From positions 3,167,001 through 3,231,000 of the forward strand of contig NC_014221.1 in the NCBI RefSeq assembly GCF_000092425.1: 64,000 nucleotides of DNA. The letters run 5' to 3'. Positions 1-39,127 of this stretch are shown piece after piece. Both the position numbers and the translations under genes were made by a program. Under the pieces are notes generated by a model that saw only the letters and a list, made by a program, of their open reading frames with translations, had not been told where the DNA came from and ran no database searches. This DNA is from Truepera radiovictrix DSM 17093 (GTDB lineage Bacteria; Deinococcota; Deinococci; Deinococcales; Trueperaceae). The first letter of the stretch is position 1. Each line of letters begins with the position of its first letter.

Positions 1-61
1 GGGACGGTAAGGTATAAGCGGTAAGGTAGACCGTACACTTCACTTTCGTCGGGAGGCTTTG

Positions 62-817
62 ATGACACCCTCAACACAAGCGTGGTTCTGGCTCGGGGCC
101 ATGGGCATGATGGTCGGCGCCCTCTACTTCGGCCTAGGCGCCTACAGCGCGCGCAAGCTGCACAACGGCCGCGCCGAGATCGTTTTTCAGCTGACCTTTT
201 TTGCGTGCCTCGTGGCCGTAGCGCTCTACCTCGCGCTGGCGTCGGGCTACGGCGCCATCGAGGGGACGTTTAACACCGGCGAAGGCGCGGGCACCCGCAC
301 GGTGTGGGCGCGTTACGTCGCCTGGACGCTCTCCACGCCGCTGCTCGTCACCCTCTTCGCGTACCTCGGCCGCAGCCGCCTCGCGACCACCACCGCGCTC
401 CTCGGTACAAACGCCGCGATGGTCGGCGCCGGCTTTTTGGCGACGCTCGCGGTCGGGCCGAGCAAGTACCTCTTTTTCGTCCTGGGGCTCGGCCTCTACG
501 CCGCGCTCGCCTATCTGCTGCTGCGCCCCTACCGTGAGGAGGCGCACGCGCACCTCCCCGAGCATAGAGCCGTCATCGACCGCCTGATCGGCGCCTACGT
601 CACCCTCTGGGCGCTCTACCCGATCCTGTGGCTTCTGGGGCCCGAGGGGTGGCGCGCCTACGGCGCGACGATGGAGGCCTCCCTCTTTACCATCTTCGAC
701 CTCGCGCTCAAGGTCGGTTTCGGCCTCCTGGCCGCCGCCACGCTCGCGCACATCGACGGCGGCGAACCGATCCGCCCCGCCGAGCTCGGCCGCTCGACGC
801 GCTCACCGTCGCACTAG
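62..817 (+). CDS. microbial (type I) rhodopsin with non-canonical Ala-Ser-Leu motif
   Basis: Seven-helix retinal protein of 251 residues. The retinal lysine is K217 in helix G (FDLALKVGFG), with the helix G counterion D213 four residues before it. Helix C reads WARYVAWTLSTPLL. Aligned with bacteriorhodopsin, R84 is Arg82, but the proton acceptor Asp85 is A87, Thr89 is S91 and the donor Asp96 is L98. The LSTP stretch resembles halorhodopsin (Thr-Ser-Ala), yet the key Thr is Ala here. Normal proton pumping is therefore unlikely; anion transport, sensing or a photochemical role are open inferences. ATG at 62 is preferred over TTG at 59 because GGGAGG at 51-56 is then correctly spaced. No transducer gene lies beside it; a cytochrome c follows after a terminator. 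Confidence 0.9.
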   Translation: MTPSTQAWFWLGAMGMMVGALYFGLGAYSARKLHNGRAEIVFQLTFFACLVAVALYLALASGYGAIEGTFNTGEGAGTRTVWARYVAWTLSTPLLVTLFAYLGRSRLATTTALLGTNAAMVGAGFLATLAVGPSKYLFFVLGLGLYAALAYLLLRPYREEAHAHLPEHRAVIDRLIGAYVTLWALYPILWLLGPEGWRAYGATMEASLFTIFDLALKVGFGLLAAATLAHIDGGEPIRPAELGRSTRSPSH

Positions 818-3806: not shown

Positions 3807-5567
3807 TCAGTTTTTCGAGAGGTCTTTCCAGAAGAAGTTGCCCGAGAGCATGGGGTTGTAGTAGTAGCCCTGCAGGTTCTCGCGCACGGCGAGGTAGTCG
3901 AACTGCGCGGGTACGATAATGAGCGGCGCGAGCTCGTAGTGGAGCTGCCCGATCTCCTGGTAGAGGGCCGCGCGCTCCTCCTGGTCGATGATGCTGTTGG
4001 CCTGATCGATCAAAGCCTGCATCTCGGGGAAGTCGATCGAGGTGCGCGCGGCGTAAAAGCCCTCGTTCGAGTAGAAGGTGTTGATGAAGTTGCGCGGGTC
4101 GGCGTAGTCGGCCGCCCAACCGAGCGCGAAGAGGGGCGCGAGGCGCTGGTCGGTGCGCGAGAGGTAGTCCGCCCACGGCAGGCCGCGCACGTTCATCCGG
4201 AAGTTGGGGTTGAGCTCGCTTAAGTTCTGCGCGATGATCTGCAGCGCGATCTGCCGCGCCGTGTTGCCCTCGTTGTAGAGCGCGGTGAACTGGAAGCCGG
4301 TGTCCCAGAGCTCACCGCCATAGGCCGCGCGGAAGTGCTCCTCGGCCGCCTCGAGGTCGAGCGTGCGGATCTCGACGTCGGGGTTGTAGCCCAAGAAGGT
4401 CGGCGGCAGCCCCATGGTGAGCGCTTGCCCCTGACCCTCTAAGACCTGGTCGACGAACGCCTGCTGGTCGAAAAGGTGCGCAAAGCCCAGCCGGACGTTT
4501 TCGTCCTGGAAGAAGTCGGCTGGGATGCCGTTGCCGTCGAGCTGCCCCGACCCGACGTCTTCGTTGTTGGCGGTGTTGATGTCGTAGTTGAAAAAGATCG
4601 AGGTGACCACGGTGGTCAAGAAGGGTTCGCCCGCCTCGTTCTGCTCGACGACGCGCACCCCGGGCGCCCCGCGGAGCTGCGCCAGACCGGCGCGGTCGCC
4701 CAAAACGATGCGGTCGGCGTCGCCTTGGGTGAGCGCCAAGATGTTGGTGGCCTGCTCGTCGACGTAGTTGTACACCACCGCCTCGAGCGCGGGGGCGCCG
4801 CCCCAGTAGTCGTCGAAGCGTTCGGCGATAAGCGAGTTTGTCTCCCAGCTCACCAAGCGGTAGGCGCCCGTACCGCTCGCTTGGTTCTGCATGAATTCCT
4901 GGGTCAGGTCGCGCCCGATCCACTCGGTCCAGGTCGCTTCCGTACCGTCCCACATGCCGTTCTCGATCGCCCACTGCGAATCCACGATGCTAAAGGCGGA
5001 GTAGACGATGATCGACAAGAAAGCGGGGTCGGCCTGACGCAGGGTGAACTGCACCGTCAGCCCGTCGTCGCCGTCGGGGCACTCGATAGCGCCGTCGATG
5101 TCGGCAAACGAGACCTCCTGCTGGTACGCCTCGGGGTCGGTGCCGTCGGTCTGGGTGCCTAGGAGCTGCGCCCCTAAAAGGTACGAAAAAGCCCCCTCGG
5201 GGTGCGCGGTGACAAAACCGCGCTCGAACGAGTACTCGACGTCGCGGCAGGTCAGGGTGTTGCCGCTATGAAAGGGCACCCCTTCGCGGAGCGTAAAGGT
5301 GTAGACGGTGCCGTCTTCGGACACCTCGTAGCCGGTGGCGAGCTGCGGCACAAAGGCGTCGATGGCTTCGCCGTCGTAGGTGTAGAGGGTTTCGTAGAGG
5401 TTCTCGATGATCTCGCTCGAGGCCGAGTCGTAGTTGCGGGCCGGGTCGAGCGTGACGGGGGCGCCGAACTGGTTGACCACGTAGGTGTCGGCGGGCGCTT
5501 GGGCGAGCGCGGCGGGCGCCGCTGCCAGCGCGAGGGCGAGGAGAGCGCGTCGGGTGGGTCGTGTCAC
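3807..5567 (-). CDS. extracytoplasmic peptide-binding protein, SBP family 5
   Basis: Secreted solute-binding protein of 586 residues. It has a Sec signal peptide (RRALLALALAAAPAALAQA) without a lipobox cysteine, then the family-5 fold typical of DppA/OppA: LDPARNYDSASSEIIENLYE near the N-terminus, and a ligand-cleft region with W and D/N residues further on. It delivers ligand to the two permeases encoded downstream. The start is GTG at 5567 with AGGAGA upstream. Lack of a lipid anchor is unusual for cells with a single membrane and fits a diderm envelope. The substrate cannot be named from sequence alone. Confidence 0.92.
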   Translation of the reverse strand: MTRPTRRALLALALAAAPAALAQAPADTYVVNQFGAPVTLDPARNYDSASSEIIENLYETLYTYDGEAIDAFVPQLATGYEVSEDGTVYTFTLREGVPFHSGNTLTCRDVEYSFERGFVTAHPEGAFSYLLGAQLLGTQTDGTDPEAYQQEVSFADIDGAIECPDGDDGLTVQFTLRQADPAFLSIIVYSAFSIVDSQWAIENGMWDGTEATWTEWIGRDLTQEFMQNQASGTGAYRLVSWETNSLIAERFDDYWGGAPALEAVVYNYVDEQATNILALTQGDADRIVLGDRAGLAQLRGAPGVRVVEQNEAGEPFLTTVVTSIFFNYDINTANNEDVGSGQLDGNGIPADFFQDENVRLGFAHLFDQQAFVDQVLEGQGQALTMGLPPTFLGYNPDVEIRTLDLEAAEEHFRAAYGGELWDTGFQFTALYNEGNTARQIALQIIAQNLSELNPNFRMNVRGLPWADYLSRTDQRLAPLFALGWAADYADPRNFINTFYSNEGFYAARTSIDFPEMQALIDQANSIIDQEERAALYQEIGQLHYELAPLIIVPAQFDYLAVRENLQGYYYNPMLSGNFFWKDLSKN

Positions 5568-38242: not shown

Positions 38243-39127
38243 CTACGCCGTCTGCACCTCCCAGTCGTAACCTTCGGCCTTGCTCATGCGCGTCGCCGCG
38301 GCGGCGAGCAGGACGCCGTAGATCACCTTGGAGGTGACGTCGGCGACGGTGTAGGTTAGGTGCCGGGCCACGACGGCTGACTCGCTGAGCGCCGGCTCGA
38401 GCGAAAAGCTGTATAAGTAGGGCATCAAGTAGGCGCCCGGATAGAGCATCCAGGAGATGAGAAAAAGGGGCCAGATCGCGCCCAACATCCCCTTGGCCGA
38501 GTCCGGCGCGTTCTCGACCCCCTCTTTAATCACGCGCCGCATCACGATCAGGATGTGGATGAAAAAGACGGTCGAAATGCTGCCCCAGAGGAAGAAAAGA
38601 CCCGGCCGGGTGACCTCGTAGAACTGACCGACGTAACCGGTAATGATCATCGCGACGCCCGAAAACCAGAACTGGTTGCGCACCGACGCAAACGAACTGC
38701 GGCTCAAGGTGACGACGAAGAGGATCTGAAAGAGCAGCATCGGCACGTCGATCAGCCAGTTGAGGTAGCGGTAACCGTTGTTAAAGAGGTCGCCGGCGGT
38801 GACGATACCCTCGACCCCCTCGGGGGCGAGCCTGTAGCGCGCCGTTGCGGGGTCGAACTGCAGGGCGCTGGTCCAGTTGAGCTGCTGGATCAGGAGCAGC
38901 AGAAAGGCCGAGACCATGACCACGACCGAGAGGATCGACGACATCCGGTAGCGCGGCCTAACCTGCCGGATCGTCAGGATAAAGTAGATGAGCGCCGCTA
39001 ACATGATGGCGTAACCGACCGTCAGCACATGCGCCGACATCTGATAGGCCATCTCGGTGTAGCCCGATTCCAAACCTACGTAGTTCTCGAACGTGGCGTT
39101 ACCCAAGCGGTGTGGAGACGGCTGCAT
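38243..39127 (-). CDS. light-driven sodium-pump rhodopsin (NDQ motif)
   Basis: Seven-helix retinal protein of 294 residues, closely similar in layout to flavobacterial KR2. Helix C reads NNGYRYLNWLIDVPMLLFQ, giving N123, D127 and Q134, the NDQ set that defines sodium-pumping rhodopsins. The retinal lysine is K267 in VADVTSKVIYG, with D263 as counterion. The N-terminus (GNATFENYVGLESGYTEMAYQ) matches the capping helix of the family. In light it should export Na+ (or H+ when Na+ is lacking), building a gradient usable in alkaline or saline habitats. ATG at 39127 follows AGGAGG. It is a single gene with its own AT-rich promoter region. Confidence 0.95.
   Translation of the reverse strand: MQPSPHRLGNATFENYVGLESGYTEMAYQMSAHVLTVGYAIMLAALIYFILTIRQVRPRYRMSSILSVVVMVSAFLLLLIQQLNWTSALQFDPATARYRLAPEGVEGIVTAGDLFNNGYRYLNWLIDVPMLLFQILFVVTLSRSSFASVRNQFWFSGVAMIITGYVGQFYEVTRPGLFFLWGSISTVFFIHILIVMRRVIKEGVENAPDSAKGMLGAIWPLFLISWMLYPGAYLMPYLYSFSLEPALSESAVVARHLTYTVADVTSKVIYGVLLAAAATRMSKAEGYDWEVQTA

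Follow-up and report, generated by a model that had tools for sequence, protein, structure and literature searches.

What can a microbial rhodopsin do when the position of the primary counterion, Asp85 of bacteriorhodopsin (BR), holds an alanine? The question is raised by a gene of the radiation-resistant bacterium Truepera radiovictrix DSM 17093 located at 62–817 on the forward strand of the window, the 64,000-nucleotide stretch of NC_014221.1 (positions 3,167,001 to 3,231,000) that was analysed here. An earlier note had read the motif of its product as Ala-Ser-Leu and had proposed an anion transporter with altered selectivity, a light sensor or a chromophore protein with a slow photocycle.

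An alanine at BR position 85

The gene starts with ATG (an in-frame TTG is also found at 59), stops at 815–817 and is translated without internal stop into a protein of 251 amino acids, of which residues 5–229 match the Pfam family Bac_rhodopsin (E 4.1e-37); zero NCBIfam models match it. A likely ribosome binding site, GGGAGG, can be read at 50–55 (+), 6 bases before the ATG. Just past the gene, a terminator-like hairpin with a T run (839–860, +; 9 pairs, 8 GC) suggests that the rhodopsin gene has its own transcript, the terminator-like sites in the region numbering 3 against 1.7 expected by chance.

Helix C of the protein is RYVAWTLSTPLLVTL, its residues running R84-Y-V-A87-W-T-L-S91-T-P-L-L-V-T-L98. 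As the earlier note stated, Ala, Ser and Leu stand at BR positions 85, 89 and 96; in the translated frame these are Ala87 (320–322, codon gcc; BR D85, SyHR T74), Ser91 (332–334; BR T89, SyHR S78), which is a conserved chloride ligand, and Leu98 (353–355; BR D96, SyHR D85), all on the forward strand. The retinal-binding Lys217 (710–712, +) and Asp213 (698–700, +; BR D212, SyHR D201), the remaining counterion, are likewise intact, and Arg84 (311–313, +; BR R82, SyHR R71) is conserved. The alignment shows that a true substitution, and no artefact, underlies Ala87 at BR position 85, since helix C aligns without gaps with MrHR, SyHR and the orthologue from a Truepera MAG, and since this orthologue shows T-S-V at the same columns. 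A shifted helix C, which would have undone the reading of the motif, was thereby ruled out. Across about 90 aligned rhodopsins of several groups, a few truncated fragments of which yield no meaningful letter, position 85 was Asp, Thr or Asn, and Ala was seen in the Truepera rhodopsin only; the claim that Ala at this position lies outside the known sets thus holds. Thr occupies the column in the 27 cyanobacterial relatives, the MAG orthologue, four archaeal halorhodopsins and the Deinococcus relative. In our literature search we recognised no paper that names a rhodopsin motif ASL.

Descent and the chloride path

Relatives were gathered as 34 loci, mostly cyanobacterial, from a scan of a genome collection, plus three close members from a sample of 386 genomes of the phylum to which one of these loci belongs; no viral relatives of the Truepera rhodopsin were found. 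In the maximum-likelihood tree it pairs with the MAG orthologue (100/100), and the pair is sister to the 27 cyanobacterial sequences, MrHR and SyHR included (100/96), and thus lies outside the purely cyanobacterial set. Next to them on the outside, less firmly supported (93/88), stands the plasmid rhodopsin of Deinococcus aetherius (TTQ); archaeal halorhodopsins, bacteriorhodopsins and sodium pumps occupy other parts of the tree. The closest solved structures by sequence are also the chloride pumps MrHR and SyHR (E about 1e-51 to 1e-49, the next best being 1e-29), and the same two are the best match of the AlphaFold2 model (pLDDT 84.1, pTM 0.81), with TM-scores of 0.94–0.96 normalised to the target and rmsd of 1.2–2.0. 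From its sister position to the cyanobacterial halorhodopsin (CyHR) clade, the Truepera rhodopsin is of the anion-pump lineage by descent.

The helix C of these neighbours, which the earlier note had pointed to as informative, reads T-S-D in 23 and T-S-I in 4 of the 27 cyanobacterial proteins, with the Val of the MAG orthologue and the Leu studied here as further variants of the third position. The CyHR clade itself includes proteins whose donor site is neutral, and the Leu noted earlier at this site is unremarkable within the lineage. The list of pump motifs used for that first comparison had omitted the relevant class, described as "predominantly TSD with TSV/TSL/TSI" (PMC9617919). Loss of the Asp at the third position (SyHR Asp85) is paired with loss of Asn39, which is Ser in four T-S-I proteins and Thr in both Truepera proteins. 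The T-S-I halorhodopsins with Ser at this position are those of Nodosilinea and Leptolyngbya (L020, L027, L028, L031). Among other cyanobacteria, the halorhodopsin genes of Scytonema and Iningainema (L035, L037, L038) appear broken, their frames being split or the N-terminal part missing.

We then compared the protein with the known systems residue by residue. It is about 40% identical to MrHR and SyHR and keeps (SyHR numbering) Leu49, Arg71, Trp75, Ser78, Asn104, Trp171, Glu193 (Glu205 here), Thr198, Asp201, Lys205 and Phe208, so that the Schiff base and uptake residues of the clade (Arg84, Asp213, Lys217 and Glu205) are all present. In contrast, Thr74, His167 and Ser204, which all 27 cyanobacterial members share with the MAG orthologue, are replaced in the Truepera rhodopsin only, by Ala87, Tyr179 (596–598, +) and Leu216 (707–709, +), the latter two in the exit cavity (PMC11995866). 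Further differences are Asn39 to Thr and Ser212 to Ala, both common to the Truepera rhodopsin and the MAG orthologue, and a longer B-C loop. The CyHR clade has Thr-Ser at BR 85/89 (TSD/TSX) and, in helix F, His167, a trait described as exclusive to this clade (PMC9617919). Since the Truepera rhodopsin has Ala-Ser and Tyr179 instead, it is, on these residue signatures, akin to CyHR by descent but not a standard member. Its nearest homologue, the MAG orthologue (L006/L012), is 64% identical and lies in the same gene order, but retains the three residues.

Other classes are more remote. Archaeal halorhodopsins (TSA) have Ser at 89, a hydrophobic residue at 96 and an expected balance of the Schiff base by chloride; however, they form a separate clade, are 21–23% identical and carry Thr at 85. 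The D. aetherius protein and the glycylhalorhodopsin 8xx8 of Salinarimonas soli (TTG), both related bacterial rhodopsins, also lack a carboxylate at 85 and vary at the third position, but they keep Thr at 85 and have Thr instead of Ser at 89. The T-T-Q motif of the former, encoded on plasmid pDAETH-2 (L046:2800-3537), resembles the TTG of 8xx8. Bacterial NTQ chloride pumps and NDQ sodium pumps, the two of this genome among the latter, have the microbial rhodopsin fold and no carboxylate at 85, but have Asn there, and the NDQ proteins belong to a distant clade (about 17% identity). Outward proton pumps (DTD/DTE) have Asp at 85 and a carboxylate at 96, where the Truepera rhodopsin has Ala and Leu.

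The roles of the altered residues are described for SyHR, where Thr74, Ser78 and water bind the chloride, and where Thr74 is reoriented towards the Schiff base in the chloride-free, sulfate crystal form (PMC9617919). In the O state of NpHR, the equivalent Thr126 takes the place left empty by chloride. The exit of chloride is believed to lead past His167. In SyHR, this residue together with Leu170, Trp171 and Ser204 lines a transient cytoplasmic anion cavity (PMC11995866); two of these four residues are altered in the Truepera rhodopsin. The SyHR mutants H167A and H167I retain 18–33% of wild-type pumping without a build-up of the O state, whereas H167Q pumps about normally (PMC11995866), meaning that polarity at 167 matters. 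By analogy, the exit route may still work with Tyr179, which is polar. The slow photocycle proposed earlier is reasonable on the same grounds, other replacements of His167 in SyHR slowing the cycle or blocking the O state (PMC11995866). For the Thr-to-Ala mutants (T126A of halorhodopsin and T74A), no relevant literature was found by a search whose scope excluded the characterisation paper of MrHR (PMC4697170).

We put at about one half the probability that the Truepera rhodopsin is a divergent inward anion pump of the CyHR type, with chloride binding weakened and release slowed or altered. With no carboxylate at 85, Asp213 and a bound anion would balance the protonated Schiff base and Arg84, and Ser91 and water would hold this anion. 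Loss of the Thr hydroxyl would lower the affinity for chloride, with a Kd expected above the 0.1–0.6 mM of SyHR, and leave a roomier site. After photoisomerisation the anion would exit past Tyr179 and Leu216 instead of His and Ser, and release would thus be slower or would favour a different anion. Among the functions first proposed, the anion transporter with altered selectivity fits best, as the tree position and the fold, both close to the cyanobacterial chloride pumps, and the altered chloride site indicate. Nevertheless, the pump may be dead, for it has exchanged both a chloride ligand that no relative has given up and a residue on which efficient release depends.

Evolutionary rate, retinal supply and gene neighbourhood

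A dead or failing pump would be a former chloride pump under relaxed selection, which may fold and bind retinal and would transport poorly or not at all, the species no longer making retinal reliably. We regard this explanation as possible, though with the odds against it. Of 65 columns that do not vary among the clade and the orthologue, 12 are changed in the Truepera rhodopsin, against 1 in the orthologue at equivalent columns, and its branch in the tree is five times longer (compare 0.63 with 0.12). Tajima-type tests with five cyanobacterial outgroups gave 27–31 lineage-specific changes in the rhodopsin vs 9–12 in the orthologue (p 0.0007–0.024); with the more distant Deinococcus outgroup the numbers were 23 and 13 (p 0.13). 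On these counts the rhodopsin is evolving 2–3 times faster than its orthologue. A genome-wide acceleration as the cause is unsupported, the neighbouring OppC gene, the one neighbour tested, having no excess on this branch (22–31 vs 34–46, in the opposite direction). The pairwise dN/dS with the MAG orthologue, for which synonymous sites are near saturation so that a recent relaxation could be hidden, was 0.30 for the rhodopsin, 0.27 for OppC and 0.28 for the cytochrome c gene (0.15–0.28 for the neighbours overall). Taken together with the relative-rate excess, this means that the gene, though under constraint overall by these estimates, is unusually divergent. Its unique changes were not significantly concentrated in the named ion-path residues (5 of 12, Fisher p 0.49), and adaptation therefore cannot be told from partial relaxation.

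The supply of retinal bears on all the rhodopsins of the genome. The only retinal-forming candidate found, a gene of the BCD/Blh family (blh, C1:196,077-196,926), changes frame at about C1:196,250, so that its coding sequence lies in two frames, and a search for RPE65-family enzymes in the genome gave none. Just upstream of blh, a xenorhodopsin-like gene with a DTA motif (C1:195,283-195,860; L009 ~4278-4900) begins, without its N-terminal part, immediately behind a TnpB gene and is frameshifted before the helix G lysine. The apparent frameshift of blh keeps loss of function alive as an explanation for every rhodopsin of this genome; it may reflect an error of the reference or a strain without this retinal-forming route. 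Relaxed selection is opposed by the frame of the gene at 62–817, which is open between a plausible ribosome binding site and a terminator, by its dN/dS of about 0.3 and by its intact retinal lysine and counterion, and the frameshifts in blh and the xenorhodopsin-like gene could be sequencing errors of the reference. The two Na+-pump (NDQ) genes of the same genome are also open. One of them lies in the window (38243–39127, −) and is strongly similar to sodium-pumping rhodopsins (E 1e-102). The two fit TrNaR1 and TrNaR2 described for T. radiovictrix, and the gene in the window is presumably one of these.

We also looked at the genes around the rhodopsin. The order flavoprotein reductase, rhodopsin, cytochrome c (924–1355, +) and OppC, of a peptide ABC transporter, is common to the window and the MAG. 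In three family members (G083, G084 and G093), which have no rhodopsin match in a phylum-wide Pfam scan, the cytochrome c gene adjoins the OppC/peptide-transporter genes without a rhodopsin. This pairing rules out a functional link between cytochrome c and rhodopsin drawn from the conserved order; it indicates that the rhodopsin probably joined a pre-existing block, and thus the neighbours do not tell its function. A clear match to the Truepera rhodopsin was found in 2 of 111 Deinococcota genomes, both Truepera, in a search that missed the two NDQ rhodopsins of the genome itself and could overlook distant relatives. The 26 rhodopsins with a readable motif that were drawn from other Deinococcota genomes are all DTE.

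Remaining explanations and significance

An unlikely alternative is that the protein is a halorhodopsin-type pump which, having lost the conserved Thr and the exit His, would use its enlarged site and a Tyr/Leu gate for a larger or polyatomic anion. Improbable as well, and more so, is a protein that has given up pumping for a new role as a photosensor or slow-cycling chromoprotein and signals through protein contacts. With Thr74 and His167 gone, the photocycle would be slower, and slow photocycles are typical of sensory rhodopsins. However, the protein has no transducer or signalling domain, and no transducer gene was recognised among the ORFs within 12 kb on either side, part of which were searched against a family library. 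The flanking genes are those for a flavoprotein reductase, cytochrome c and the peptide ABC transporter, a cytochrome c/ABC block that relatives have without any rhodopsin. The light sensor of the earlier note is thus left without support, no transducer having been recognised next to the gene. That the protein transports protons, inward or outward, by means of Asp213 or Tyr179 is very improbable: MrHR T74D pumps protons (PMC8020794), meaning that the scaffold tolerates conversion, but there is neither an acceptor carboxylate at 85 nor a donor at 96 here, and Ala and Leu are the opposite of the converting mutation. Finally, a sequencing error, with Thr ACC read as GCC, is scarcely credible, for although the codons are one base apart and one genome of the species was at hand, the protein differs at eleven more columns that are invariant elsewhere, including two of the exit cavity, which points to real divergence.

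Altogether, as far as sequence can tell, the Truepera rhodopsin is a natural variant of the cyanobacterial-type light-driven chloride pump that has lost one chloride ligand and two residues of the exit route. In halorhodopsins, the Thr at position 85 counts both as one of the signature residues and as a moving part of the chloride cycle. The Truepera rhodopsin, which lacks this Thr, and its close orthologue, which has it, form a natural pair with which one can ask whether a pump needs the Thr and the exit His, and with which function calls based on motifs can be put to test. If the Truepera rhodopsin does not pump, it would document the loss of function in a pump lineage. If it does pump without the Thr and the exit His, the Thr switch would be dispensable and the set of anion pumps for optogenetics would be wider.
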